Source: Nocardioides panacisoli
GTDB taxonomy: Bacteria > Actinomycetota > Actinomycetes > Propionibacteriales > Nocardioidaceae
DNA length: 64,000 nucleotides
Assembly: GCF_019448235.1 (NCBI RefSeq)
Contig: NZ_CP080409.1
Coordinates: 2,480,001-2,544,000 of the forward strand
Direction of reading: 5' to 3'
Shown here piece after piece: positions 1 to 33,130 of the stretch (positions are counted from its first letter, which is position 1; each line of letters opens with the position of its first letter). Below the pieces are notes generated by a model that worked only from the letters and a program-made list of their open reading frames with translations, was not told where the DNA came from and searched no databases. The position numbers were made by a program, and so were the translations under genes.

Positions 1-391
1 GCGGGTGGCTCCTTCCGGTCCTTTCGGACCATGCCCACCACCCGATCATCGGGTCCGGCGCCACTCCGTCCCGACTAGGTTGGGACCAGCTGTTCGGGCG
101 GCGTCGCCCGAGCCCTGCTCAGTCCGACCGCTCGGCGGCCGTAGTGTCCCCATCGACCTGGGGGGACGGCGGGTGCACTGCGGCCACCACATGGGGTGCG
201 GCCGCGACCGTCGCCGCACGAGGTGCCAGCTGCCCGTGCAGCCCTCGCGTGAGGTCTCGATCCCCACCGGCGTCATCCATCACTCGTCGTCCGCCACGCG
301 ACGCGCGACTCGGCGGTCGCACCCGACCCGCTGGCAGCAGCCCACCGACAGCCCTGTCGCAACCTCGGCGCGCCACAGCGTCGACTGTGCC
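1..391. other. Region without a supported gene
   Basis: An open frame runs through this stretch into the XRE regulator gene, but its residues look non-coding (Arg/Pro/Ser/His rich, no recognisable domain), and a better start with a ribosome site exists at 416. I see no RNA gene or repeat. It probably holds distal promoter sequence of the regulator. Confidence 0.5.
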
Positions 392-410
392 TATAATCGA
401 CCGCAGGAGG
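392..410 (+). promoter_or_regulatory. Promoter -10 box and ribosome site of the XRE/TPR regulator gene
   Basis: A perfect TATAAT lies at 392-397 and an AGGAGG ribosome site at 405-410, 5 bases before the ATG at 416. The two are so close that transcription would begin at about 403, giving an almost leaderless message. No convincing -35 box is visible. Confidence 0.55.
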
Positions 411-415
411 CACAA

Positions 416-1837
416 ATGGGCACATTGGACGTCACAGAGGTCGGTCATGCCGAATTGCTGCGCGCGATGGACCCACGCGTCCTCGGGGGCCGCATCCGGG
501 CCGCACGCGAGGCACGCGGCCTGACCCAGCAGCAGCTGGGCGGAGCGGACCTGTCCGCCGGCTACCTCTCGCGCATCGAGAACGGCGCGCGACGTCCCGC
601 ACTGCCCGTGCTCCAGGACATCGCCCTGCGCCTGTCCACGTCGGTGGACCAGTTGCTCCGCGGCATGTCGGCCGCGGCCTACGACGAGATCCGGCTCGAC
701 CTGGACTTCGCCGAGATCGCGCTCGAGTCCGGCGAGGCGAGCGACGCCCACGCCCGCGCGAGCAGCGGACTGCAGCGTGCCCAGGCGGCCTCGCAGGCCG
801 ACCTCGCCCTGCGGGCGCGCCTGCTGCACGCCCGCGCGCTGGAGTCCCTGGGATCGCTCAACGACGCGATCCTGGACTACGAGAAGGCGCTCGAGTCCGC
901 CACCGGACTGCTCGCACTCCAGGCCGGGATCGCCCTGAGCCGGTGCTACCGCGAGTCCGGCGACCTGGCGCTGGCCATCGAGGTCGGCGAACGCCTCAAG
1001 CGGGTCATCGAAGACGCCGACCTGGGCAACACCGACGAAGCGGTGCGGCTCGCGGTCACCGTCGCGGCGGCGTACGCCGAGCGCGGCGACGTCGCCCGCG
1101 CGACCCGGATCTGCGCCGACGCCGTGCGTCGCGCCGAGACCGTCTCCTCACCCCAGGCCCGCAGTGCCGCCTACTGGAACGCCAGCATCCTCTACGCCCG
1201 CCGGGGCGAGGTGAGCGACGCGATCCCGCTGGCCAAGCGCGCCCTGGCCCTGCTCGCCGAGGGCACCGACGAGCGCAACCTCTCCCGGCTGCGCCTCACG
1301 CTCGGTCGACTCCACCTCTCCGCCCCCGAGCCGGACATCGCCGAGGCGGTCGAGCACATCACCCGCGCACGGACCGACTTCGGCTCCTCGAGCGCGAGCG
1401 TCGTGGACGTCTCGTTGAGTGACGTGTCCCTCGCCCAGGCCCACGTGATCAACGGCGACCCCGACGCGGCGGCCGAGATCGCGCACCAGGCCTTCGACAA
1501 CGCCCCCGAGGAGGCCTCGATGGTGCGAGCCGAGGCGCTGGTGATCCTCGGGCAGGCCGAGGCAGCGCGGGGTCGCGAGACCGAGGCCAAGTCCGCCTAC
1601 CAGCGGGCTGTCCACCTGCTCTCGGCAGCCGGCTCGGACCGGGGAGCCGCACAGCTGTGGCTCGAGCTCGGCGAGCTGCTCAACGGCCTCGGTGACACCG
1701 AGGCCGCCATCGCCGCCTTCCGCAGCGCCACTGCCGCGAGCGGACTGCGCACGCGGGCGCACCTCAACACCGGACGGGGCGTCCACATCCCCAGCGCCAT
1801 CACCGAGGTCGAGACGGCGGACGTCTCGGCGGACTGA
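416..1837 (+). CDS. XRE-family regulator with C-terminal TPR array
   Basis: This 473-residue protein probably binds DNA through an N-terminal helix-turn-helix (residues about 26-82, with LTQQQLGGADLSAGYLSRIE as the recognition part). The rest is a long run of helical pairs typical of tetratricopeptide repeats. HTH plus TPR is the plan of the RRNPP regulators (Rgg, PlcR, NprR, AimR), which bind short peptides in the TPR groove; that family plan is known, but its use here is inferred. The start at 416 is chosen over the longer open frame because of the AGGAGG at 405-410 and the TATAAT at 392. The gene converges on a 41-codon signal-peptide gene 92 bases downstream, the possible source of its ligand. 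It could instead sense a protein or an internal peptide. Confidence 0.8.
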   Translation: MGTLDVTEVGHAELLRAMDPRVLGGRIRAAREARGLTQQQLGGADLSAGYLSRIENGARRPALPVLQDIALRLSTSVDQLLRGMSAAAYDEIRLDLDFAEIALESGEASDAHARASSGLQRAQAASQADLALRARLLHARALESLGSLNDAILDYEKALESATGLLALQAGIALSRCYRESGDLALAIEVGERLKRVIEDADLGNTDEAVRLAVTVAAAYAERGDVARATRICADAVRRAETVSSPQARSAAYWNASILYARRGEVSDAIPLAKRALALLAEGTDERNLSRLRLTLGRLHLSAPEPDIAEAVEHITRARTDFGSSSASVVDVSLSDVSLAQAHVINGDPDAAAEIAHQAFDNAPEEASMVRAEALVILGQAEAARGRETEAKSAYQRAVHLLSAAGSDRGAAQLWLELGELLNGLGDTEAAIAAFRSATAASGLRTRAHLNTGRGVHIPSAITEVETADVSAD

Positions 1838-1929
1838 GGTCCACCGACGAGGCCACCGGCGGGGTTGCCCGCTTGCCTCGTCAGCTCACCCCGTTCATGA
1901 CGGGGTACGACGGGTACGTCGTGGTTCGG

Positions 1930-2055
1930 TCAGCAGCACCAGGCGTCGCGGCCGGCGGAGATCGTCCCCTCGGGCTCGGCGGGGGTGACCGCACCCAGAC
2001 CCATCGCGGCCACGGCAGCCATCGACACCATCGCGAGCTTCATGCGCTTCGTCAT
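1930..2055 (-). CDS. 41-residue exported peptide, candidate signalling peptide
   Basis: The gene encodes 41 residues. A basic start (MTKRMK) is followed by a hydrophobic stretch of about 17 residues (LAMVSMAAVAAMGLGAV) and a polar tail ending DAWCC. A signal-peptidase site after the Ala of VTPA would release a tail of about 15 residues with two terminal cysteines. The codons are strongly G/C-ending, as in the neighbouring genes, which supports real coding. The GGTGAG at 2062-2067 is the ribosome site. It converges with the HTH/TPR regulator and has an unusually long structured upstream region. A pheromone for that regulator is the attractive reading; a small secreted or membrane peptide of other function is possible. 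Confidence 0.7.
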   Translation of the reverse strand: MTKRMKLAMVSMAAVAAMGLGAVTPAEPEGTISAGRDAWCC

Positions 2056-2099
2056 TTTCTTCTCACCTTCGTGAAAGGGGTTTTGCCCAACGGACGTAC

Positions 2100-2130
2100 T
2101 GTGGCACAATCTGTCACAAGCGCTTGGCAC
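2100..2130. promoter_or_regulatory. Compound palindromic operator upstream of the peptide gene
   Basis: Two overlapping dyads lie 45-75 bases upstream of the peptide start. TGTGGCA (2100-2106) pairs with TGTCACA (2112-2118) with one mismatch, and CAAGCGCTTG (2117-2126) is a perfect 10-base palindrome. Their position fits a repressor or activator site for the minus-strand gene. The natural candidate protein is the neighbouring XRE regulator (inference). Confidence 0.5.
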
Positions 2131-2281
2131 TTTGCTAGGACAATCTCGGGGATGGAGCCGAAAGACCTTCGGATCCGTCCCCACCGTTGTCCGTCCCCCC
2201 CGTGAAGTTCCCAGCGCGAGTGTCCACGGATTTCCAGCGCACCCCCCAGCGCACGGAATGCCCCATGACACGCAGTGGCGT

Positions 2282-2307
2282 GGCCCCCGGTACGGGTACC
2301 GGGGGCC
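2282..2307. terminator. Strong 12-bp hairpin, possible terminator or attenuator
   Basis: GGCCCCCGGTAC and GTACCGGGGGCC form a perfect 12-bp inverted repeat separated by two bases. On the plus strand it is followed within 11 bases by TTTT, so it may be a rho-independent terminator. No plus-strand gene ends near it. A second small dyad, TGGCA(CAAT)TGCCA at 2328-2341, lies beside it and repeats the TGGCACAAT of the operator at 2102-2110. The rest of 2131-2639 contains no gene I can support. Confidence 0.45.
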
Positions 2308-2639
2308 GCGATGCTTTTCACACCCGTTGGCACAATTGCCATCTCGCTGGCATGCACGGGCAGGGGCCTGACCTCGATCCGGGGAGCAACGGGACCCCGG
2401 CGGCAGTCGCGAGGTCCGTGGTCGCACTGCATCGAAGCACGCCGTTGCCACCGGGGCGTGCCACCGCGACGCCCACGAGCGGTCGTGTCGGCGCGGGAAC
2501 GGATCGGGCGGGAGCCCTGCCGGCTCTCCGGCGCGGGAGGATGGGGGTCCACCACTCCACGGTGCGGCGTACGCCCGGCGCGGGGCATCCTTCAGATGGG
2601 GCAAGTCGGGCGTGTGGACACACGTGTCACCATTGATGA

Positions 2640-3170
2640 GTGAGCGACAGCAGGGTTCGGGTCCTGGACGAGTCGGACTGGCGGATCTATCGAGACCTCC
2701 GTCTCGAGGCACTCCGCGAGTCCCCTGACAGCGTGGTCGGCAGCCGGGAGGCCGAGTCCGACCACGACGAGGCATTCTGGCGCGACCTGTTGCGCGAGGA
2801 GCCACGGTTCGTCGCCGAGCGCGACGGCCAGGCCGTGGGCATCGTCGGACTGCACCCCGCGCCGGACGACCCCGACGTCGCGGAGGTCCTCGGCCTGTGG
2901 GTCGCGCCCACGATGCGCGGCAGCCGCATCGCGTGGGAGCTGGTGGCCGCAGCGACTGATCGTGCCCGCGACCAGGGCCGCACGCAGCTCTTCTTCTGGG
3001 TCGCCTCCGACAGTGGCGCGGCGGTCGCCTTCGCGAGCACCTTCGGCTTCCGGCCGACCTCCCAGCGTCGTACGGCGCCGGCCACCGAGGCCGCCACCCC
3101 GCAGGAGGAGGTCGCCATGGTGCTGCCCCTCGTGGACGACCCCAGCGCGACCAAGACCCCGTGGCACTGA
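2640..3170 (+). CDS. GNAT-family N-acetyltransferase
   Basis: This 176-residue protein has the GNAT fold, in which an acetyl group moves from acetyl-CoA to an amine. Central strands and the acetyl-CoA loop fall around VLGLWVAPTMRGSRIAWELV (residues about 83-102), followed by the ALxxAxxFGF-like end (AVAFASTFGFRP). The substrate is unknown. The GTG at 2640 is the start because the ATG at 2636 is out of frame. There is no good ribosome site in front, so the message may be leaderless. A second small acetyltransferase follows 17 bases later. Confidence 0.75.
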   Translation: MSDSRVRVLDESDWRIYRDLRLEALRESPDSVVGSREAESDHDEAFWRDLLREEPRFVAERDGQAVGIVGLHPAPDDPDVAEVLGLWVAPTMRGSRIAWELVAAATDRARDQGRTQLFFWVASDSGAAVAFASTFGFRPTSQRRTAPATEAATPQEEVAMVLPLVDDPSATKTPWH

Positions 3171-3187
3171 GCCGGAGGATCCCTTCG

Positions 3188-3523
3188 ATGAGCGAGACGA
3201 GCACCGACGTCGCCGTGCGCGACAACCCCGACCGGAGCCGCTACGAGATCCTGCTGGCCGACGAGGTCGTCGGGTTCTCCGCCTACCAGCTGGCGGACCG
3301 CCGGGTCACCCTGGCGCACGTCGAGGTCGACCCCGCCCACGGCGGCCGGGGCCTGGCCAGTCACTTGGTTCGCGCGCAGCTCGACGACGCCGCGCAGCGC
3401 GGCCACGAGGTCGTCCCGGTCTGCCCCTTCGTCCGCAAGACGATCGCCGACCACCCCGACCGCTACCTCGACCTCGTCCCCCGCGGCGAGCGCGCCCGGT
3501 TCGGCCTCCCGGACCAGGACTGA
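3188..3523 (+). CDS. Small GNAT-like acetyltransferase (YjdJ/NATD1 type)
   Basis: The 111-residue protein matches the short GNAT group (Gcn5-related N-acetyltransferase, PF14542 type). It has the conserved pattern of a strand ending HVEVDPAHGGRGLASHLV for acetyl-CoA binding and a C-terminal VVPVCPFV..YI-like segment (here VPVCPFVRKTIADHPDRYLDL). These proteins are usually 90-110 residues, so the length is normal. The ATG at 3188 is preceded by GGAGGA at 3174-3179, better than the in-frame ATG at 3161 inside the previous gene. It is probably co-transcribed with the upstream acetyltransferase. Confidence 0.8.
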   Translation: MSETSTDVAVRDNPDRSRYEILLADEVVGFSAYQLADRRVTLAHVEVDPAHGGRGLASHLVRAQLDDAAQRGHEVVPVCPFVRKTIADHPDRYLDLVPRGERARFGLPDQD

Positions 3524-3537
3524 GGCGGGGCGGCGCC

Positions 3538-4425
3538 CTAGGTCTGCGCCAGGACCGTCGCGAGCACCTGCAGGGCTCGTGCCGGTGCCGGCCGGTCGTC
3601 CTCGGCCCGCACGGCCGCCGCGAGGTCGACGTACGCCGACGGCGAGGCGAGCGGCCGGTGCGTGACGCCGTCGACGCCCAGTGCCGCCACGGGCTCGGGC
3701 ACCACGGCGATGCCCAGGCCCGCGGCGACGAAGGTGACCAGCGTCGAGGTCTCCTCGACCTCGTGGCGCACGTGCGGCTCGAAGCCGGCCTCGCGGCACA
3801 GCGACACCACGGCGCCGTGCATCACCGAGCGGCGTGAGGCGTGCACGACCATGTCCTGACCCCGCAGGTCCTCGACCCGGAGGCGGCGCCGCGAGGCGAG
3901 CGGGTGGGTGTCGGGAAGGAGCACGATCAGGCCGTCGCGGCGCAGCGTGGTGAGCCGCACCCCCAGCTCCTCGACGGGCGGCCGCAGCAACGCGACGTCG
4001 AGGCGGTGGGCCATCAGCTCCGCGACCTGGTCCGGCACCAGCATCTCGCCGCGCACGGCCACGTCCAGCAGCGGGAACTCGCGACGCAACGCGACCACCA
4101 GGGCGGGAAGCAGGCTGTAGGTCGCCGAGCCGACGCACCCGATGACCAGGCGTCCCTCCACACCGCTGGCGATCCGACGTGCCTCGTCGCCGGCGGCCTC
4201 CACCTCGCCCAGCACCACCCGGACGCGGTCGAGGTACGCGCGGCCGGCGGCGGTCAGCTCCACGCGGCGGGTGGTGCGGTCCAGCAGCCGCACCCCCAGC
4301 TCGTCCTCCAGCTGACGGATCTGCTGCGACAGCGGCGGCTGGGCCATGTGCAGCCGCTCGGCGGCGCGGCCGAAGTGCTTCTCCTCGGCGACGGCCCGGA
4401 AGTAGCGCAGGTGGCGGAGCTCCAT
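3538..4425 (-). CDS. LysR-family regulator of the beta-ketoadipate genes
   Basis: This 295-residue LysR protein has an N-terminal winged helix (MELRHLRYFRAVAEEKHFGR, residues 1-20, through about 65) and a periplasmic-binding-like effector domain. The HFGRAAERLHMAQPPLSQQI stretch is typical of the CatM/BenM/CatR branch that senses muconate or related acids. It is divergent from pcaF with a 91-base gap holding an inverted repeat, the usual LysR arrangement of autorepression and activation of the divergent operon. It therefore probably controls pcaFDIJ. Its effector (muconate, 3-oxoadipate or another) cannot be told from sequence. Confidence 0.85.
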   Translation of the reverse strand: MELRHLRYFRAVAEEKHFGRAAERLHMAQPPLSQQIRQLEDELGVRLLDRTTRRVELTAAGRAYLDRVRVVLGEVEAAGDEARRIASGVEGRLVIGCVGSATYSLLPALVVALRREFPLLDVAVRGEMLVPDQVAELMAHRLDVALLRPPVEELGVRLTTLRRDGLIVLLPDTHPLASRRRLRVEDLRGQDMVVHASRRSVMHGAVVSLCREAGFEPHVRHEVEETSTLVTFVAAGLGIAVVPEPVAALGVDGVTHRPLASPSAYVDLAAAVRAEDDRPAPARALQVLATVLAQT

Positions 4426-4448
4426 CAGGCGTCCTCACCCAGTGATAT

Positions 4449-4487
4449 CTGTGACGTCCCAATCCGCACGAACTGAGTATTTCACAG
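4449..4487. promoter_or_regulatory. Candidate LysR operator and promoter between the LysR gene and pcaF
   Basis: CTGTGA (4449-4454) and TCACAG (4482-4487) form a perfect dyad with a 27-base spacer in the 91-base divergent intergenic region. The arms are AT-richer than the surroundings. The pcaF start at 4517 has no clear ribosome site, so the message may have a very short leader. Assignment to the LysR protein is inference from position. Confidence 0.45.
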
Positions 4488-4516
4488 TATCGCTGCGCGT
4501 CCCTACCGTGGACGAC

Positions 4517-5731
4517 ATGACTGACGTGGTGATCTGCGAACCCCTCCGCACCCCGGTCGGCCGGTTCGGCGGCGAGCTCGCCGCGGTGTCCGCCGTGGAC
4601 CTCGCCGGTGGGCTGCTGCGCGAGCTGGTCCACCGGACCGGGCTGGGCGAGGGCGACGTCGACGACGTCATCCTCGGCAACTGCTACCCCAGCGGGGAGA
4701 ACCCCGCCATCGGCAGGATCGCCGCCCTCGACGCGGGCCTCGGCACCGGCGTCCCGGGCATCCAGATCGACCGGCGCTGCGGATCCGGCCTCCAGGCCGT
4801 GCTGTACGCCGCCGGCCAGGTCGCGACCGGAGCGGCACGCCTCGTCGTGGCCGGGGGCGCGGAGTCGATGTCGCAGGTCGAGCACTACGCGCTGGGCCTG
4901 CGCTCGGGAGTGAAGCAGGGTGGCGTCGACCTGATGGACCGCCTGGACCGCGCCCGCACCACGGCGGGCGGCCGTCACCACCCGGTGCCCGGCGGCATGC
5001 TGGAGACCGCGGAGAACCTGCGCGCGGAGTACGACATCGCCCGCGAGGAGCAGGACGAGCTCGCGGTGCGTTCGCAGCAGCGCGCCGGCGCCGCCCACGA
5101 CGAGGGTCGCTTCGCCGACGAGCTGGTGCCGGTCACCGTCCCCGGGCGCCGGGGCCGCCCGGACACCGTCGTCGACCGTGACGAGCACCCGCGCCCCGAC
5201 ACCACGCTGGAGCAGCTCGCCGGCCTGCGCGCCGTGCGGCACAAGCTCGACCCCGCCTCCACGGTCACGGCCGGCAACGCGAGCGGGCAGAACGACGGCG
5301 CCGCGATGTGCGTCGTGACGACCCGCGACGAGGCCGAGCGCCGCGGACTCCGCCCGCTCGTCGCACTGCGGTCCTGGGCGGTCGCCGGCGTCGGCCCCGA
5401 GGTGATGGGCATCGGTCCGGTGCCCGCCACCGCCGCCGCCCTCGAGCGCGCCGGCCTCACGCTCGACGACATCGACGTCATCGAGCTCAACGAGGCCTTC
5501 GCCGCCCAGGTCCTCGCCTGCTTGCGGGAGTGGCGGATCGACGCCACCGACGAGCGCCTGAACCCCAACGGGTCCGGCATCTCGCTGGGCCACCCCGTCG
5601 GCGCCACCGGCGCCCGCATCCTCGCGACGCTCACCCACGAGATGCGGCGCCGTGAGTCGCGCTACGGACTGGAGACCATGTGCATCGGCGGCGGCCAGGG
5701 TCTCGCCGCGGTCTTCGAGCGGGTCGCCTGA
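4517..5731 (+). CDS. pcaF: Beta-ketoadipyl-CoA thiolase
   Basis: A 404-residue thiolase that would cleave 3-oxoadipyl-CoA with CoA to succinyl-CoA and acetyl-CoA, the last step of the pathway. The nucleophilic cysteine is C88 in IDRRCGSGLQ. The C-terminal catalytic boxes NEAFAAQ, GHPVGATG and CIGGGQG are all present. The ATG at 4517 gives the normal thiolase N-terminus (VICEPLRTPVGRFGG); the frame extends upstream but without homology-like sequence. It overlaps pcaD by one base (TGATG), and pcaI and pcaJ follow in the same direction. Sequence alone does not separate it from acetyl-CoA acetyltransferase; the gene neighbours decide. Confidence 0.88.
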   Translation: MTDVVICEPLRTPVGRFGGELAAVSAVDLAGGLLRELVHRTGLGEGDVDDVILGNCYPSGENPAIGRIAALDAGLGTGVPGIQIDRRCGSGLQAVLYAAGQVATGAARLVVAGGAESMSQVEHYALGLRSGVKQGGVDLMDRLDRARTTAGGRHHPVPGGMLETAENLRAEYDIAREEQDELAVRSQQRAGAAHDEGRFADELVPVTVPGRRGRPDTVVDRDEHPRPDTTLEQLAGLRAVRHKLDPASTVTAGNASGQNDGAAMCVVTTRDEAERRGLRPLVALRSWAVAGVGPEVMGIGPVPATAAALERAGLTLDDIDVIELNEAFAAQVLACLREWRIDATDERLNPNGSGISLGHPVGATGARILATLTHEMRRRESRYGLETMCIGGGQGLAAVFERVA

Positions 5732-24681: not shown

Positions 24682-26292
24682 ATGAGGAAACGCTTGATGC
24701 CACGGGCCGGTGTCGCGGCCCTTGTAGCCACCGCGCTGTTGACGGCCGGATGCGCCAGTTCGGGCGGTGAGGACCGGGAGGACACCTCAGAGATGTCCAA
24801 GTCCGACATCTACACCGCTGGCGTGGTCGGCGTGGAGGGAGACCCGGGCGAACCTCAGACAGGCGGAACGCTCACGATCGCCGACTACTCCGAGGCGCGC
24901 AGCCTCGACCCCACTCAGACCATCCCGAACGGCGCTGCCGGCGGCAACGCACTCGCGGCGGTGTATGACGTGTTGATGCGCTATGACCAAGCCTCGGACT
25001 CCTTCGAACCGTGGCTGGCGGAGTCGCTGGACTCCGACGACAATCAGACTTGGACGTTGAGGCTCCGCGAGGACGTGACGTTCTCCGACGGCACTCCTCT
25101 CGACGCGGCCGCCGTGGTCGGCAGCATCGGTTACTACATGCAGCAGGCTGGTTACAACACTCTGCTGCTGGCGAGCAACATCAAGGACATGGACCCGCAG
25201 GGCGAGGACACGGTGGTGTTCACGCTCAACCGCCCGTGGACCACGTTCCCCAACATGCTCGCGAGTGGTCCCGGCATGATCATGGCACCCGCGGCGTACG
25301 CCAAGGACCAGAAGGAGTTCACCCCAATCGGGGCTGGCCCGTTCACCCTCGACGAATACCAGCCCGGCGAAGAGCTCCTGCTCGCCGCGAACACGGACTA
25401 CTGGAACGGCGCGCCCCACCTGGACGGGCTCCGATTCGTCTGGCTCGGAAGCGACGACGACCGGCTGAGCTCGCTGGATGACGGCAGTGTCGACGTGGCA
25501 AACGTGCGAGCGCCGCAGACCGTGGAGCAAGCGCGACGCGATGGCTTCGCGGGGATCATGGTGCCCAACGGCCTCTCGGCCATGTTCTGGCTGAACAACC
25601 GTGAGGGCAGTGCGGGTTCTGATGTCCGAGTGAGACAGGCGATCAACCACGCGATCGATCCCGAAGTGTACTTCGATCGCGTCAGCAACGGTGCCGGGTT
25701 GCCAAGTCGCAACATCTACTCGCCGAACGCGCCGTACTACACCGAGGTCGAGACCTCAGAGTTCGACCCCGAGAAGGCGGAGGAGCTGCTCACTGAGGCC
25801 AAGGCGGACGGCTATGACGGGAAGCTGACCTACATCGGTCAATCCGATCAGGCTTCCCAGACCGGCGCCGTGACGATCAAGGGAATGCTCGAGGCGGTTG
25901 GATTCGAGGTCGAGACCGATCTGCTGCGCAACGTTGCTGACCAGACGCAGCGTATCTACGTCACGCACGACTACGACGTTGCCGTGTCGGCGATGAGCAT
26001 CCCGGACGAGGACCCCTACTCCCGGTTGGCGACGAACATGAACAGCCAGTCGCCGCAGAATCCCTCGGGCTATGGGAATGATGAGATGGACAAACTCATC
26101 GCAGAGTTGCAGACCGCCGAGGGCGACGAGGCGGAGGACCTGCTGGAACAGATCAACCAGTTGTGGCAGGACACCGTTCCCGGAGTGGCGATGGGTGCAG
26201 GTGCCTTCTTCTTCCCGTGGAATGAGGACGTCCACGGCATCACCACGACTTCGGAGTTGATCATGCTCTTCGGAGATGCCTGGAAGGGCTGA
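24682..26292 (+). CDS. ABC transporter substrate-binding lipoprotein (oligopeptide/nickel family 5)
   Basis: This 536-residue protein has a lipoprotein signal (basic MRKRLMPR, hydrophobic core, lipobox LTAGC with C24) and the SBP family 5 body: GGTLTIADYSEARSLDPTQT, VTFSDGTPLDAAAVV and the C-terminal PDEDPYSRLATNMNSQSP stretch. It would capture a peptide or other amphiphilic solute outside the membrane for the permease genes encoded convergently 3-5 kb away. The ATG at 24682 follows GGAGGA. A strong terminator follows. The lone placement on the opposite strand from its permeases is unusual but not rare. Confidence 0.87.
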   Translation: MRKRLMPRAGVAALVATALLTAGCASSGGEDREDTSEMSKSDIYTAGVVGVEGDPGEPQTGGTLTIADYSEARSLDPTQTIPNGAAGGNALAAVYDVLMRYDQASDSFEPWLAESLDSDDNQTWTLRLREDVTFSDGTPLDAAAVVGSIGYYMQQAGYNTLLLASNIKDMDPQGEDTVVFTLNRPWTTFPNMLASGPGMIMAPAAYAKDQKEFTPIGAGPFTLDEYQPGEELLLAANTDYWNGAPHLDGLRFVWLGSDDDRLSSLDDGSVDVANVRAPQTVEQARRDGFAGIMVPNGLSAMFWLNNREGSAGSDVRVRQAINHAIDPEVYFDRVSNGAGLPSRNIYSPNAPYYTEVETSEFDPEKAEELLTEAKADGYDGKLTYIGQSDQASQTGAVTIKGMLEAVGFEVETDLLRNVADQTQRIYVTHDYDVAVSAMSIPDEDPYSRLATNMNSQSPQNPSGYGNDEMDKLIAELQTAEGDEAEDLLEQINQLWQDTVPGVAMGAGAFFFPWNEDVHGITTTSELIMLFGDAWKG

Positions 26293-26309
26293 CTCCGAGC
26301 ACATGACCA

Positions 26310-26344
26310 CAGAGGCCCGGCGCGCTGGGGGCGCCGGGCCTCTG
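26310..26344. terminator. Bidirectional terminator between the binding protein and amidase genes
   Basis: CAGAGGCCCGGCGC (26310-26323) and GCGCCGGGCCTCTG (26331-26344) form a perfect 14-bp stem with a seven-base loop, followed by GGGTTTCTC on the plus strand. It separates two converging genes. Confidence 0.85.
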
Positions 26345-26367
26345 GGGTTTCTCTGTTCGCGTGGCGT

Positions 26368-27777
26368 TCAGGCGTACGCGGGCGCCACCAGCGGCCACGG
26401 CAATGCCTGCTCGAGCTGACACGCCAGCCCGAGAAGGGTGCCCTCGGTGCCGAGGTCACCGATGAAATGCACTCCCAGGGGTACTCCCGCATGATCAACG
26501 CCGCAGGGCACGGACATGGCCGGCATACCGGTGGCATTGGCGACCGCGGTGAAGGCCGAGAAGTCGCCGCCGCGCTCCCACATCACTGCCGGGTCGCTGG
26601 TGTCGAGCACGCCGAGTGTCGGCACCGGCAGTGGGAGGGTCGGTGTCAGCAGGAGGTCAAGTCGCGAGAACGCGGTGCCGAGTTGCCACCCGGCTCGCTG
26701 AAGGGCCACGTGGGCGTCGTACACCTGCGTAGGCGTCATCGTGGCTCGGTAGTGATCGAGCATGAGTCGTGTGAAGGGCTCGAGATCGTTCTCTACCAAG
26801 TCGCGGCCGAGCTCGGTCAGACGGTGCTCGACGTCTGCCAGCAGTGACACCCCCATCAGGGTCGCGAATCCGCTCATCATCTGCTCCGCGTCGTGGGGGA
26901 ATGTGACCTCCTCGACATGGTGCCCGAGGGTCTCACAGGCCCGGGCGGCACGCCGCGCGGCGTCGACCACGACCGGATCGACCGTGCCGCCGTCGGCGCG
27001 TCGGGTGACGAGCCCGATGCGGAGGCCCGTCCGTGGGGCAGTGGTCTGGTGCACGAAGGGGGTGGCCGACGTCGGCGCTGCGAATGCATCGCCGGGAAGC
27101 GGTGCGCAGGAGAGGTCAAGCAGGAGCGCACTGTCTCGCACGGTGCGGGTCACCACGTGATTGACGGAGAGTGGGGCAGCCAACGTCGTCGCGAAGGGGT
27201 GGGAGGTGACCCGCCCACGGCTGGGCTTGAGTCCGAACAACCCGCACGCGGCGGCGGGGATCCGGAGGGATCCACCCCCGTCGTTGCCATGGGCCACCGG
27301 CACCAGGTCGGCGGCGACCGCGGTCGCGGCTCCGCCCGACGAGCCGCCCGACGAGTGGGTCGTGGCCCACGGGTTGCGCGTGGGCCCGTGAAGCAGCGGC
27401 TCGGTACTGGCGTTCTTGCCCAGCTCGGGCGAGTTGCTGGTTCCAAGCACAACCATGCCGGCGGCTCGATAGCGGCGGACCAGCTCGCTGTCGACTGGTG
27501 CCACGTTGTCGGCCCAGAGCCGACTGCCGCGAGTCAGCGGGAGGCCGGCGACCTGCGCACCCAGGTCCTTGATCAGGATCGGCACGCCGCGCAGTGGCCC
27601 GTCCGGGAGATCGCCGGCTGCCTCCGCAAGTGCCTCCTCGAACCGCTGGGCGACGACGGCGTTCAGGGTGCTGTCGTGCTTCTCAATTCGGGTGATGGCC
27701 TCGGTCACAACCTCGCGTGCCGACACCTCCCCATCACGGATGGCTGCGGCCGTGGCGATGGCGTCGGGATAGGTCAC
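26368..27777 (-). CDS. Amidase of the amidase-signature family
   Basis: A 469-residue amidase with the Ser-cisSer-Lys triad: K70 (PILIKD), S146 in the SSGGSSGG signature and S170 in [12 protein letters not shown]. These enzymes hydrolyse carboxylic acid amides in the cytoplasm. The GTG start overlaps the stop of the upstream ATPase gene (GTGA), so it is the last gene of the seven-gene operon starting at the CoA ligase. Amide hydrolysis after import and before CoA activation of the freed acid is the natural reading. A GatA role is unlikely, as no gatB or gatC is nearby. Confidence 0.85.
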
Positions 27778-28772
27778 GGAATCTCCTTCACGTGATGGCA
27801 GGCGACGTAGTGGCCCGAACGGATCTCACGGAGTTCGGGCTCCTCGACCGCGCACCGTTCGGTGGCCCATGGGCATCGAGTGCGGAAACGGCATCCCGAG
27901 GGTGGCTCCAGTGGCGAGGGGAGATCGACCGCCGGCGCGGGCTCAGGATCGTGGTCAGCGTCATCTGCGCTGGGCACGGAATCGAGCAGCAGGCGGGTGT
28001 ACGGATGGGTCGCGTGGTGTTCGAGGCCGTCAGCGGGTAGCACCTCGCAGGTCTTGCCGAGATACATCACGAGGACTCGGTCGCTGATGTTCTTGACGAC
28101 GGCGACGTCGTGGGCGATGAAGAGCATGCTGAGGTGTCGGTGCCGTCGAGTCTCCTCGATCAGGTTCAAGATCTGCGCCTGCACCGAGACGTCGAGGCTC
28201 GACACCGGCTCGTCACAGATCAGTACGTCGGGATCCAGCGCGAGCGCACGGGCGATGCAGACGCGCTGGCACTGGCCGCCGGACAGTTCGTGCGGCCTTC
28301 GGTCACGCACCGTGCGGGGGTCCAGCCCGACCGATGTCAACAGCTCGTCGATGAAGGTCTCCCGCTCGGTTCCGGACCGATCACCCCAGCCCCAGATGGC
28401 GAGACCCTCGGCCACGAGGTCCTTGACACGTCGTCGGGGATTGAGTGCGGAAACCGGGTCCTGGAGCACCAGCTGCATCCGTGAGCGCGCGGTGCGCATC
28501 GCCGACTCCGACAACCCGGTGAGCTCGATGTCGCCGAGGCCGACCGTTCCCGAGGTCGGTGGCGGCAGTTGCATGATCGCGCGCCCGGCGCTGGACTTGC
28601 CACAGCCCGACTCGCCGAGGATCCCCAACGTCTCTCCCGGCAGCAGGTCGAGGTTGAGTCCGGACACCGCGTGGACCGTTCCCCGCTTGACGGGGAACTC
28701 CACGACAAGGTCGTCGACGACGAGTGCGCGCTCGGCCTCCTTCCGCAGGTGTGCGGTGCCGCTACCGGCCAT
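27774..28772 (-). CDS. Oligopeptide-type ABC transporter ATPase (OppF/DppF)
   Basis: A 332-residue ABC ATPase with Walker A GESGCGKSS (near residue 53), signature LSGGQCQRV, Walker B VLICDEP and the H-loop AHD. The C-terminal oligopeptide extension has the cysteine pattern CRFRTRCPWATERC, which binds Fe-S or metal in some Dpp/Opp ATPases. It starts 11 bases inside the end of the partner ATPase gene and overlaps the amidase start. Confidence 0.9.
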   Translation of the reverse strand: MAGSGTAHLRKEAERALVVDDLVVEFPVKRGTVHAVSGLNLDLLPGETLGILGESGCGKSSAGRAIMQLPPPTSGTVGLGDIELTGLSESAMRTARSRMQLVLQDPVSALNPRRRVKDLVAEGLAIWGWGDRSGTERETFIDELLTSVGLDPRTVRDRRPHELSGGQCQRVCIARALALDPDVLICDEPVSSLDVSVQAQILNLIEETRRHRHLSMLFIAHDVAVVKNISDRVLVMYLGKTCEVLPADGLEHHATHPYTRLLLDSVPSADDADHDPEPAPAVDLPSPLEPPSGCRFRTRCPWATERCAVEEPELREIRSGHYVACHHVKEIP

Positions 28773-29820
28773 GCAGACCTCCTCCGGACACTGACACGGG
28801 GGGCGTGGACACGGTCGGGTCGAGGCGTCGATGGTGACAGGCGACCTGGCGTTGCGGCATCACACCGACTTGGAGCAACGGCGCCTCCGTCCGGCACTGC
28901 TCGTCGCAGCTTCCGCAGCGCGGCGCGAATCGGCATCCCTCGGGAGGAGCCATCAGGTCCGGCGGCGTCCCGTCGATCGTTCGCAGGAGAGTGTGAGGCG
29001 GATCCTGCAACCGCGGGATGGAGGCGAGCAGTGCCTCGGTGTAGGGGTGGTCCGGCTGGCCGAACACCGCCCTCGTGGGCCCGGTCTCGACGATTCCGCC
29101 GGCGTACATGACCTGCACCCAGTCGGTGCGCCCGGCGACGGTGCCGAGGTCGTGACTGATCAGGATCATCGCCATGTGGCGTTCGCGGACGAGTCGCCCG
29201 AGCAGGTCGAGGATCTGGCGCTGGACGGTGACGTCGAGAGCTGTAGTGGGCTCGTCCGCGATCAGCAGACGCGGGTCGCAGGCAAGGGCGATCGCGATCA
29301 TGACGCGCTGCCGCATCCCTCCGGACAGCTCGTGAGGGTATTGGTCGAGGCGCCGCCGAGGTTCGGGGATGCCGACCTGACGGAGCAGCTCGCTCGCTCG
29401 CTCGACCGCCTGCCGTCGGCTGCAGCGCTCGTGTCGCCGCAGTGTCTCGGTGAGGTGAGTGCCGATGCGCTTGACCGGGTTGAGGGAGGTCATCGGATCT
29501 TGGAAGATCATTGCTATCTCCGGTCCCCACAGCCGGCGCCGCTGGCGGTCGTCGAGCGCGTGCACGTCTCGGCCACCCAGCCTCACCGAGCCTGTGACGG
29601 TTGTCCGGGCGTCGGTGCCGACCAGCCCCATGACTGCCCGCCCCAGGACCGACTTGCCTGATCCGGACTCTCCCACCAGACCTAGGATCTCTCCGGGGGC
29701 GACGCTGAAGGAGACGCCGTCCACCGCACGGACCTCGCCACGTGGCGTGTGGAATCCAACCCGGAGGTCTTTGATCTCGAGCAGCGTGGAGTCGGGAGCG
29801 GACGGGGATAGGAGATTCAC
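28762..29820 (-). CDS. Oligopeptide-type ABC transporter ATPase (OppD/DppD)
   Basis: A 352-residue ABC ATPase with Walker [10 protein letters not shown], signature [10 protein letters not shown], Walker B LLIADEP, H-loop SHD and the C-terminal [14 protein letters not shown] stretch typical of OppD/DppD. The GTG at 29820 is taken as the start because it overlaps the permease stop in the same GTGA manner as its neighbours. The two ATPases together drive the importer. Confidence 0.9.
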
Positions 29821-30854
29821 AGCTTGGCGCTCCTGACATTCCAGTGCTCCTGGGCCTTCTCGCCCAGCAGGTTCACAGAGAAGACCGTGAGGAAGAGACA
29901 TACACCGGGAATCACCACGATGAACGGGTGTTCCTCCATCACACCGCCCTGCCCCTCGGCGATCATGTTTCCCCAGGTGGGCTGAGGCTGTTGGATCCCG
30001 ATGCCGAGGAAGGACAGCGACGCTTCGGCCACGACCAGCACCGAAATCATCACCACCGACAACGACAGCATCGGCAGGACTACGTTGGGCAGAACCTCGC
30101 GGGCGAGCAATCGCAGCCGGTGAGCGCCCAATGCTCGTGCAGCCAGCACGAACTCCCGTTCAGCAACGGCGATGGTGTTGGCCCGCGCCAGCCGCACCAT
30201 GCTGGGCACGGTCAGCAGCGAGAGTGCGAAGGAGATGCTGCGCAGGCTGGGCTCGAGCACCGTTCCGAGGGCGATGAGCAGGATCAGCGGAGGTACGGCG
30301 AGCAGGGCGTTGGCCGCCACCCCCACCACACGGTCCACACCCCCGCGCACGAAGCCGGCGACGATGCCGACGGTTCCGCCAACGACGGCACCCAACAACA
30401 CCGCGACGATGGCCACCGTGATCGATGTCCTTGCGCCGAACACGGTGCGTGCGAGGACGTCGAGACCGTAGTTGTTCGTGCCTAGCGGATGCTCGGATCC
30501 GAGGGCGGGTTCGGCAAAGATCGGCTCGCGCAGCCCGGCGACCGCGTCGTCGTGGTTGGCGAGGGGGAGCCACGGCGCCAGGACGGCGGCACCGACCACG
30601 AGCACCAGCCACACCACTCCAAGGCAGAGCACCACGTCGACGTGGCGGCCCCGAACTGCATGCGCGACGCGTCCGAGACCGGCGATGAGGGCCAGAACTC
30701 CCACCACCCCCAACGTCGCACGGGCCACACCGATCAGGGCGACGGTTGTGACGGCCCATGCGGTGAGACCAGCACCGATCAGTAGCAGGAGCGCCCCGAC
30801 GCTCAAGAGTCCGCGACGGGTGGCGGTGGCGCGGCCGGGATCAGGCGCGAGCAC
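29817..30854 (-). CDS. ABC transporter permease (OppC/DppC type)
   Basis: A 345-residue inner-membrane protein with an N-terminal pair of extra hydrophobic segments, the OppC-type [25 protein letters not shown] region, and the EAA loop ([20 protein letters not shown]). It forms the channel with the DppB-type partner. The GTG start lies 14 bases inside the end of the preceding permease gene. Confidence 0.88.
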
Positions 30855-31815
30855 GACGCGTCCTGGGGTCGAGGAATCCGTAGGACTGGTCGATCAGCGC
30901 GTTGCTCGCTACGTAGACGACGGCGATGACCAGTACGGCCCCCTGCACGACCGGATAGTTCCCTTGGTTCGCGGCCTCGATGACCAGCTTGCCCATGCCG
31001 GGCAGCGCGAAGAGGTACTCGACGATGACGGTGCTGCCGACCAGTCGCCCGATGCTCAGTCCCAGCACAGTGACGAGAGAGAAGGAGGACGGCCGCAACG
31101 CATCGCTGACCAGAACGCGAAGCGGGTGCATTCCGCGGGCGCGCGCCGCGAGGATGTAGTCCTCGGTCAGCGTGTTGGCGAGGTCGTTGCGCAAGATTCG
31201 GGTGAACATGGCGGCCTCCATGAGCGCGATGGTCAGGGCAGGCAGCAGGGCGTGTTCGAGGTTGCCCGTCACGCTGTCCGACAGTCGGACCCACTCGTTG
31301 CGAGGCAGCAGGCCGAACGAGTTCACCACCACCGCGATCAGCAGGAGTCCCAGAAGGAACGACGGCATTGAAAGCAACCCGAAAGTGGTGGCGCTGATCA
31401 TCCGGTCACTGCGGCCGCCCTGGCGGTACGCCGACCACATTGCCATCGGCACTGCGATCAGGAGGGCCAGCGTGATCCCAAGGAGCGCCAGCTCAAGACT
31501 CACCGGCAACGCAGCGAGGATCCGCTCGCTGACCGCGGTCTGAGGTGGCACCAAGGACGTGCCCAAGTCACCGGCCACAGCTCCACCGAGCCAGTCGAGG
31601 TAGCGCAAGTGGATGGGTTCGTCCAACCCCAGGTCGGTACGCAGTTCGGCATACTCTTCCGCGGTGCGTCCCTCCCCCAGTACTGCGACCGCTGGGTCCC
31701 CAGGCACCATGCTGACCAGGAGGAAAACCCCCGCGCTGACTAGGAGGAGGACCGCGACGAACTCCGCGCCCGCAGTCAGGACTCGGCGTACCACGAGTGG
31801 CAATGTGACACCCAC
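30841..31815 (-). CDS. ABC transporter permease (OppB/DppB type)
   Basis: A 324-residue permease with the OppB-type start (VSAGVFLLVSMVPGDPAVAV), the LGLDEPIHLRYLDWL loop and the EAA motif (YILAARARGMHPLRVLVSDAL). The GTG at 31815 lies 28 bases after the oxidoreductase stop. An upstream open frame exists inside that gene, but its residues are not permease-like. Confidence 0.85.
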   Translation of the reverse strand: MGVTLPLVVRRVLTAGAEFVAVLLLVSAGVFLLVSMVPGDPAVAVLGEGRTAEEYAELRTDLGLDEPIHLRYLDWLGGAVAGDLGTSLVPPQTAVSERILAALPVSLELALLGITLALLIAVPMAMWSAYRQGGRSDRMISATTFGLLSMPSFLLGLLLIAVVVNSFGLLPRNEWVRLSDSVTGNLEHALLPALTIALMEAAMFTRILRNDLANTLTEDYILAARARGMHPLRVLVSDALRPSSFSLVTVLGLSIGRLVGSTVIVEYLFALPGMGKLVIEAANQGNYPVVQGAVLVIAVVYVASNALIDQSYGFLDPRTRRARA

Positions 31816-31843
31816 GAGTGCGGTCCGATGTGACCTGTCCCAC

Positions 31844-33130
31844 TCACCGGAAGTCGCTCGGGATGGCGTCATTGTCGCGGCGGATGGTTGGGTCGGGCAG
31901 GGCGACGACATAGGCCGCGGGTGTGCCCCAATCGCTACTACGGGTCGTCTCGCGGTCAACCAGCACGCAGCGAGTGCCGGTGAAGTTGGTGGGCATGCAC
32001 TTGTTGCAATGGATGCACAGTGACCGTGCCGTCGGATCTGCTTGAATCTGGTTGACGAGATCCGGCTCACGAAGCAACGCTCGCCCCATCGCGACGAAGT
32101 CGAATCCGTCGGCCATCGCCGTTTCCATGATCCGTCGTTCGGTGATGCCGCCGAGCAGGATCATCGGAAGGTCGACCGCAGCCCGGATCTGACGTGCGTC
32201 CTCGAGCAGGTAGCCGTCCCGATACGGGTAGGTCTTGAGCAGGCGTGGTCCGACCGTGCGGACGCCGGCTCGGATCGGCTGCGGCATGACGCCTGCGAAC
32301 TCCTCCAGCGGCGCGTCGCCCTTGAAGAGGTACATCGGGTTGAGCAGGGAACTGCCTGCGGTCATCTCCACGGCGTCGACGGTGCCGTCGGACTCCAGCC
32401 ACTGGACGACCGGGATCGCCTCGTCGAGCCAGAACCCGCCGGGAACGCCGTCGTCCATGTTGACCTTGGCCACGATCGCGATGCGGTCCCCCACGGCGTC
32501 GCGGACCGCCCGCATGATCTCGCGTGCGAGCCGTGCTCGATAGCGCAGGCGACCGCCGTACTCGTCCCTGCGACGGTTGAGTTTCGGACTCAGAAAGGCA
32601 CTGGCCAGATAGTTGTGGCCAAGGTGCACCTCGACGGCGTCGAAGCCGACCGCGACCGCGCGGCGGGCCGCCTCGCCGTGGGCGTCGACCACGCGGATCA
32701 GGTCTGCGCGGCTCGCTTCGTGGGAGGTGTTCATCGCGATCAGATTCACGCGTCGGCTGGGCGCGAGCGCGGGAGCACGGTTGCCCCGTGACTCCGCCAC
32801 CGGGCCGCCGTGGCCGATCTGCGCGGAGACCGCGGCGCCCTCAGCATGCACGGCCTCGGTCAGGGCATGCAGGCCCGGCAGCGACTCGTCGGTCCAGTGG
32901 ATCTGGTGGCGGTCTGTCCTGCCGTCCTTGGCGACCGCAAGATACGCCACAGTGGTCATCCCGACACCACCCCGCGCGTAGCGCACGTGGAAGTCGACCA
33001 GGTCTCTCGTCACGAGGCCGCGGTGGCTCAGCCCCTCGTACGTCGCGGCTTTGATCGTTCGATTGCGCAGCTGGACCGGTCCGAGCCGACCCGGTGCGAA
33101 GACGTCGGGCGGCGTGGATGTGGGTGCCAC
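31844..33130 (-). CDS. NADH:flavin oxidoreductase (Old Yellow Enzyme family), single-domain with Fe-S cysteines
   Basis: A 428-residue FMN TIM-barrel protein of the OYE/2,4-dienoyl-CoA reductase group. Seen are the start LGPVQLRNRTIKAA, the substrate motif VEVHLGHNYLASAFLSP with LNRRRDEYGG, and an FMN phosphate region near ILLGGITERR. C372, C375, C378 and C388 form the 4Fe-4S cysteine cluster of the trimethylamine dehydrogenase/DCR/BaiCD type. The FAD/NAD domain that normally follows is missing; the chain ends about 40 residues after the last cysteine. It would need another electron donor. The GTG at 33130 has AGGAG in front. The gene is second in the ligase-to-amidase operon. Confidence 0.8.
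   Translation of the reverse strand: MAPTSTPPDVFAPGRLGPVQLRNRTIKAATYEGLSHRGLVTRDLVDFHVRYARGGVGMTTVAYLAVAKDGRTDRHQIHWTDESLPGLHALTEAVHAEGAAVSAQIGHGGPVAESRGNRAPALAPSRRVNLIAMNTSHEASRADLIRVVDAHGEAARRAVAVGFDAVEVHLGHNYLASAFLSPKLNRRRDEYGGRLRYRARLAREIMRAVRDAVGDRIAIVAKVNMDDGVPGGFWLDEAIPVVQWLESDGTVDAVEMTAGSSLLNPMYLFKGDAPLEEFAGVMPQPIRAGVRTVGPRLLKTYPYRDGYLLEDARQIRAAVDLPMILLGGITERRIMETAMADGFDFVAMGRALLREPDLVNQIQADPTARSLCIHCNKCMPTNFTGTRCVLVDRETTRSSDWGTPAAYVVALPDPTIRRDNDAIPSDFR

Follow-up and report, generated by a model that had tools for sequence, protein, structure and literature searches.

Can bacteria outside the Firmicutes coordinate their behavior through short exported peptides that are taken back up and read by an intracellular TPR regulator? 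This question is raised by a locus of Nocardioides panacisoli, near the start of a 64,000-nucleotide stretch of DNA (hereafter, the window), in which a gene for a helix-turn-helix (HTH) and TPR protein faces a very small gene. In the literature searched, RRNPP systems appear only in Firmicutes (PMC10075063, PMC9765709, PMC13220807, PMC4748050); it describes intracellular peptide-pheromone receptors as a Firmicutes feature, with Actinomycetota typically using small-molecule signalling (PMC10075063, PMC9765709). A sequence-only reading of the window had nevertheless proposed a peptide-communication pair outside that group.

An HTH-TPR regulator converges on a gene for a small pre-peptide

The larger gene (Table 1) encodes the 473-residue XRE-TPR protein that the sequence-only reading had described. 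Pfam places HTH_3/HTH_31 at residues 23-79, followed by many TPR matches, and we read the whole architecture as an HTH at residues 20-82 and nine TPRs at 86-441. In line with this, an AlphaFold2 model built on an alignment of 73 sequences (mean pLDDT 92.6) predicts the HTH domain followed by eighteen helices, which would correspond to the nine TPRs; the final 19 residues have a pLDDT below 50. The cytoplasmic location of the protein is taken solely from its translation, which has no obvious signal or membrane segment. On these grounds it would be, like the DNA-binding receptors of the RRNPP/RRNPPA group, a cytoplasmic TPR superhelix bearing an HTH. Only generic HTH/TPR Pfam families passed in the family search, no NCBIfam model scored above its cut-off, and an Rfam search of window positions 1-5000 gave no match.

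Table 1. Features of the window, with positions counted from its first nucleotide
Feature	Position	Strand	Basis or remark
HTH-TPR regulator, proposed intracellular receptor, 473 aa	416..1837	+	Pfam matches, AlphaFold2
Intergenic hairpins, possible two-way terminator	1838..1929	.	Folding
Gene for 41-aa pre-peptide; N-part resembling a signal peptide; tail EPEGTISAGRDAWCC	1930..2055	-	Translation and relatives
Ribosome-binding site of peptide gene, AAGGTGAG	2062..2069	-	Read directly from sequence
Operator-like direct repeat TTGTGACAGA-TTGTGCCA (TTGTGACAGATTGTGCCA)	2102..2119	-	Motif search; 47-64 bases upstream of peptide start
Further GTGCCAA half-site beside the direct repeat	2124..2130	-	Read directly
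Strong terminator-like hairpin upstream of peptide promoter	2279..2310	+	Folding
Oligopeptide ABC importer with amidase	24682-32070		Binding protein 24682-26292, rest on other strand

The regulator and the peptide gene converge, and the 92 bases between their stops fold into hairpins (z -3.55 and -2.80). The peptide gene comprises 126 bases (41 codons), and its product, MTKRMKLAMVSMAAVAAMGLGAVTPAEPEGTISAGRDAWCC, ends in DAWCC. The basic start, hydrophobic core and likely cleavage site attributed to this product agree with the translation, in which a T-P-A site would leave a tail of 15 residues; here and below, export was judged from composition, hydropathy and cleavage-site pattern. Likewise, the codon bias and ribosome site ascribed to the small gene are borne out by direct reading, with G or C at the end of 38 of the 41 codons and the AAGGTGAG site lying six bases ahead of the start. 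The peptide matched no Pfam family, and its single NCBIfam match scored far under the cut-off.

Among 119 database relatives of the peptide examined (of 129 found), 117 end in CC, a count to be read with the knowledge that the search profile itself contains CC; the remaining two look frame-shifted. All 70 distinct CC peptides show a loose A-x-A-like site leaving a short tail, as far as this pattern alone tells. The most conserved part of the peptide is its C-terminal end past the signal-peptidase-like site, not the hydrophobic stretch. The pN/pS ratio, here a weak test of selection, is only 0.71 for the whole peptide, which counts against the proposed system, and 0.78 over the last 12 codons, which change fast.

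Regulator and peptide occur as a pair in Nocardioidaceae-type loci

Conservation of the two genes as a pair had been set beforehand as a check on the proposal. In the first loci collected (L001, L002 and L004-L032), a CC-ended exported ORF adjoins the regulator in 28 of 31. We then considered 61 named Nocardioidaceae-type loci, fetched by regulator sequence alone and overlapping in species with the 31 genus loci, the nearest named relatives being mostly Nocardioides, plus Marmoricola and Pimelobacter. In 54 of these 61 loci an exported CC-ended ORF lies within 700 bp of the regulator; the seven misses are L091, L102, L117, L119, L126, L130 and L132, of which L091 and L130 stop at contig edges. 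As a control, we turned to the more distant flanks of these loci, 383 kb in all; there a single CC-ended exported ORF was present, which is L102's own peptide, 1.6 kb off, and shuffled flanks give 0.0008 such ORFs per locus. As in RRNPP/RRNPPA systems, then, the receptor gene adjoins a small gene for a propeptide that is probably exported, judging from hydropathy and cleavage-site pattern.

The two genes also co-occur genome-wide. The regulator is present at E 1e-20 or better in 48 of 98 genus-sample genomes, with 50 having no match. When the same 98 genomes were searched with a peptide profile, every one of the 45 listed matches extending to the CC end, spread over 36 genomes, had a regulator no more than 1 kb away, and the 50 genomes lacking a regulator match contained none of these; matches were listed to E ~0.0076, and the 45 are every listed match reaching position 41. 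The proposal would have been weakened by peptide genes that are absent or broken beside orthologous regulators. This is clearly not the picture, as the peptide is present at 28 of 31 and 54 of 61 loci and all of these listed full-length matches adjoin a regulator, though some regulators stand without a peptide: L042, L044, L048, L052 and L057 of Nocardioides have no CC peptide nearby, even under relaxed rules, and are possibly listeners that only receive.

Genomic context varies widely, with 24 groups among 62 loci and only 254 of 1891 locus pairs sharing any flank homologue, a grouping blurred by spurious frames in the ORF set and by short contigs. The linkage is therefore not mere synteny, and we rejected simple synteny as the source of the pairing on this account. 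A chance ORF was rejected on the strength of the distant-flank and shuffle controls and the genome-wide co-occurrence.

Peptide genes occur in tandem, in two or three copies, at several loci; three lie beside one regulator at L107 (5376-5937), L009 (2969-3741) and L124 (5371-5924). The window genome, a single 3.57 Mb contig, itself carries a second pair (G000:C1:2065284-2067044; also L002 1060-2823 and L067). Its only full-length regulator paralogue, 48% identical, is accompanied by a small exported ORF, MTKTKLAVAAMAVAFVTAVAPVSPAAAAPVVKTNTTEHCC, with the tail TNTTEHCC; here the peptide is upstream of and divergent from the regulator start, whereas the window pair is convergent. A third regulator match in this genome (L003) is HTH-only and was excluded from the counts.

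Beyond the peptide gene we read 20 ORFs at 19 loci, of which 17 carry unrelated Pfam families (including one CAP12/Pycsar TIR effector and one integrase) and three carry none. A RiPP, bacteriocin or toxin operon was considered and set aside, as nothing of the kind was recognised among these ORFs. The CAP12/Pycsar-type TIR effector gene lies just past the peptide gene in one Nocardioides (L087, 5951-6901).

Many related regulators across Actinomycetota adjoin putative peptides with WP or CC tails

A wider regulator profile (A3) matched, at E 1e-25 or better, in 103 of 394 class genomes and 40 of 396 phylum-sample genomes. Many of these wide-family regulators have a short exported ORF beside them, in most cases transcribed divergently from the start of the regulator. 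We scored 101 loci, excluding duplicates and Nocardioidaceae loci and keeping as misses the contig-end loci L214, L226 and L229, whose coordinates are doubtful; 20 loci found later are not in this count. In 60 of the 101, the opposite strand carries, no more than 450 bp away, an exported ORF whose tail is of the W(x)P or CC type, against 3 of 868 control windows and an expectation of 0.7 of 101. This tail rule was devised after many of these loci had been viewed, and the controls were scored by the identical rule. Any opposite-strand exported ORF was found nearby in 80 of the 101 loci, as opposed to 23.5% expected; of the 41 loci without the tail motif, 21 have no such ORF.

The tails of the wide family end in FPWPK, GQGNWP, WPGMCC, HPPTCC, PWPHCC, NWPKH, NWPKCC or GGIWCC, with WPGMCC and NWPKCC bridging the WP and CC types. 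In some precursors the motif is multiplied: AGEGIWY/GEGIWY three times, GNWPDPM two or three times, TVGGSWP (GGSWP) three times, DISWP three times and DIEWP twice. Three-copy precursors are found at L168 (2604-2810, GEGIWY), L284 (3367-3600, GNWPDPM), L290 (3246-3422, GGSWP) and L309 (1321-1599, DISWP), and the regulator beside the DISWP precursor matches a protein of Streptomyces vilmorinianum at 100% identity. At the position expected of a signal, then, the Nocardioides type has a conserved CC end and some of the others W-P repeats, which may serve as the respective signals. A rapidly built tree joined the window regulator with 91 from the wide family and every third one of the 71 of Nocardioidaceae type, 116 in all. 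On this tree, tail types are strongly clustered, with 20 changes as compared to a shuffled mean of 52, and CC and WP tails switch five times. Judged by sequence, the family probably spans several actinobacterial families using WP and WCC signals, a larger scope than was first claimed.

Six Streptomyces-family loci (L249, L251, L253, L256, L257 and L258) have a divergent GTG-start exported ORF with no WP/CC tail; most of these ORFs carry A-N-x-GP past the hydrophobic stretch, possibly a further peptide type. Distant regulators were also found in 16 plasmid records, and in the seven regions read, a clear CC peptide was seen only in Nonomuraea gerenzanensis. A search for phage carriage with one pattern returned no viral-contig relative. 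A partial regulator, 48% identical to that of the window, is present on an unverified, unannotated 'Bacteriophage sp.' contig from human faeces (MT836207.1, L335), which may be bacterial DNA, and no CC or WP peptide was seen beside it; we set this contig aside as too slight a basis.

The peptide tail covaries with the TPR domain

Were the tail the ligand of the regulator, it might be expected to co-vary with the TPR groove, a check that the sequence-only reading had proposed. Such covariation was found at the level of domains. Across 71 Nocardioidaceae-type pairs, tail distance correlates with TPR distance when the HTH is held constant (partial r 0.49, p 0.001), and not with HTH distance when the TPR domain is held constant (partial r -0.006, p 0.56). 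For the signal-peptide part of these 71 peptides, by comparison, the partial r values are 0.29 with the TPR domain and 0.21 with the HTH. Moreover, the tail tracks the C-terminal TPRs over the N-terminal ones (0.32 vs 0.12), and the signal peptide does not (0.18 and 0.19). These values come from a Mantel-type test that corrects only partly for shared ancestry, in which the shorter HTH gives noisier distances and the signal-peptide part is the only control. They cover 71 of 81 named loci; the rest had no CC peptide, an internal stop or a regulator already present.

Four residues of the predicted groove are well conserved among the 73 aligned sequences: W254 and N255 in 73 of 73, R176 in 71 and R179 in 70. 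Over the wide set these positions are kept less often (W254 60/91, N255 31/91, R176 55/91, R179 45/91). In a TPR register of our own, drawn from helix ends and conserved Gly/Ala, W254 and N255 occupy positions 5 and 6 of helix A of TPR5, and R176 and R179 positions 9 and 12 of TPR3, all of which we take to be groove-lining positions in TPR proteins. The basic residues among them would suit the free C-terminal carboxylate of a peptide. Four signs would thus point to the tail as the ligand: the covariation with the TPR domain, the predicted groove residues, the CC end conserved amid a fast-changing tail, and the repeats within precursors.

A ligand of this kind would have to return to the cytoplasm. 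The window encodes an oligopeptide ABC importer, in which the gene for a binding protein is followed, on the opposite strand, by those for an amidase, a pair of oligo_HPY ATPases and a pair of permeases. This binding protein is one of two family-5 oligopeptide-binding proteins (E 1e-10) in the genome. Such an importer is present in many genomes, and its presence here makes re-import of the peptide possible.

A direct repeat marks the peptide promoter

To look for a control element, we searched upstream of 55 non-redundant peptide genes and found the direct repeat acTTGcCnaAATTTGcCAaa in 49, with a log-likelihood of 418 as compared to 64-74 in three shuffles, a score that is inflated by the relatedness of the sequences, the shuffles keeping single-base composition only. 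The window form, TTGTGACAGATTGTGCCA, is exact and is the sole match in its genome at up to two mismatches; as a reversed control pattern matches there twice, this uniqueness alone says little. When as many as three mismatches are allowed, 7 of 10 genomes contain the clade form, each a single time and always at the peptide gene, and its reversed control has one match in the ten (G070). The clade form is missing from three genomes: G021 and G022, in which the regulator has no match either, and G095, in which it has one.

The small gene had been credited with a dense palindromic upstream region. This is partly right: a terminator-like hairpin does lie there, but what relatives conserve is the direct repeat. 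A strict search with the upstream motif for a wider regulon, in these 10 genomes and the window genome, found no target beyond the peptide promoter. Autoregulation of the peptide gene via the upstream repeat would be the simplest reading.

Other roles for the peptide

Could the peptide instead be a secreted effector, bacteriocin-like or otherwise directed at competitors, whose own regulator, the TPR protein, responds to some other cue? The peptide does look like the main target, its promoter being the only site of the element, tandem copies would raise gene dosage, and the tail evolves fast. However, no gene for immunity, export or peptide modification was recognised among the 20 ORFs read past the peptide, tail and TPR domain covary, and the multi-repeat precursors with their short W-P core resemble multi-copy pheromone precursors; we consider this explanation unlikely. 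The same neighbourhoods, with no modification enzyme recognised, speak against a RiPP precursor modified by unlinked enzymes and regulated, or bound at its leader, by the TPR protein. Such a precursor would also be short and have a Cys pair and a conserved end to its core, yet the N-terminal part here looks less like a RiPP leader than like a Sec signal peptide, and the probability that remains for this explanation is next to negligible.

A toxin-antitoxin-like pair, in which an HTH repressor keeps a small hydrophobic membrane peptide in check, would likewise place a short hydrophobic ORF, preceded by a repeat element of its own, next to an HTH regulator. Regulators do occur without a peptide, and among the matches listed there is no peptide without a regulator, a pattern that such a pair would also give. 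Conservation that is greatest past the cleavage-like site rather than in the hydrophobic stretch, a tail motif repeated inside precursors, and the tail-TPR covariation all fit this poorly and make it extremely unlikely. The near-invariant CC end, for its part, might suggest that the vicinal cysteines belong to a metal or redox sensor, the regulator reading thiol state or metal rather than population density. The regulator family, however, includes members with cysteine-free tails (FPWPK, GNWPDPM, GDISWP), so the cysteines are not essential to the family mechanism, and a sensor of this sort is very unlikely.

A probable RRNPP-like module in Actinomycetota

Taken together, these results make it probable that the locus is a two-gene peptide-signalling module, an RRNPP-like intracellular peptide-pheromone system with an autoregulatory loop. 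The sequences show the conserved pairing, the motifs of the tails, the upstream repeat and the tail-TPR covariation, and the fold is predicted; export, maturation, import, binding and the sign of regulation are what we infer from them. In the pathway that we propose, the small gene would yield a pre-peptide leaving by the Sec pathway, from which signal peptidase, perhaps with a second protease, would free a short peptide from the C-terminus, with WCC as its end (in other clades WP or WPxxCC, some precursors carrying several copies). This product would re-enter through an oligopeptide ABC importer and bind in the groove on the concave side of the regulator's TPR superhelix, with TPR3-TPR5 at the centre (R176, R179, W254 and N255). 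Binding would switch HTH action at the TTGnC direct repeat ahead of the peptide gene, closing an autoregulatory loop that would report producer density or confinement. The proposal of a communication pair outside the Firmicutes is thus supported by the listed linkage counts (28/31, 54/61 and 45/45, from sets that share species) and the domain-level covariation, and places the system in Actinomycetota.

Among the closest known arrangements are those of PlcR-PapR and NprR-NprX, RRNPP systems of the Bacillus cereus group, in which an HTH and TPR regulator likewise lies beside a small gene for an exported pre-peptide, the tail being the presumed signal. PlcR is a co-linear HTH and TPR profile match to the regulator (E 1.1e-13), with engineered and eukaryotic TPRs scoring equally well or better. 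PlcR, NprR and Rap are among the fold matches to the model, the best being the eukaryotic LGN TPRs, which score above Rap and NprR, so that fold alone proves little. Unlike those systems, the present one belongs to Actinomycetota, has about nine TPRs and CC- or WP-ended tails, and has a peptide gene that is mostly convergent in Nocardioides and mostly divergent elsewhere; by these searches it is too distant to be placed inside a known subfamily.

In Rgg-SHP and AimR-AimP, too, receptor and peptide are adjacent, and SHP feeds back on the peptide promoter, features shared with the system proposed here; SHP signals sit in the hydrophobic part, not past a signal-peptidase site. Rap proteins are not known to carry an HTH. 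Among known actinobacterial proteins, the NsdA-family TPR regulators and RamB (NCBIfam) are similarly HTH and/or TPR regulators, and the window regulator scores well under their cut-offs (NsdA, 22.3 of 75 bits; RamB, 22.5 of 700 bits), which leaves it outside the NsdA family. The gamma-butyrolactone system uses a small-molecule signal and TetR-type receptors; the system proposed here shares its phylum and would instead use a peptide signal and an HTH-TPR receptor. Gamma-butyrolactone signalling of Streptomyces is an established type of cell-cell signalling in Actinomycetota (PMC4748050), and the Rap-Phr systems of Bacillus phages have duplicated pheromones (PMC11343458), resembling the several pheromone-like repeats per precursor seen here, which consist of W-P motifs and accompany a receptor with an HTH.

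The open-access literature searched, which leaves subscription journals and bioRxiv outside it, yielded no report of such a system in Actinomycetota. More speculatively, the family might be an ancient and widespread peptide-pheromone language of the phylum, parallel to RRNPP and built on a W-P core, with the WCC of Nocardioides forming a reversible vicinal disulfide that reports oxidation along with density; we regard this extension as rather doubtful. A paired family that runs from Nocardioides, via another family of its order, to Streptomyces would bring peptide signalling to a phylum famed for its antibiotics. As the candidate peptides are short and defined, they could be synthesised and added, and the old question of whether actinomycetes talk by peptides becomes a bench test on soil strains.
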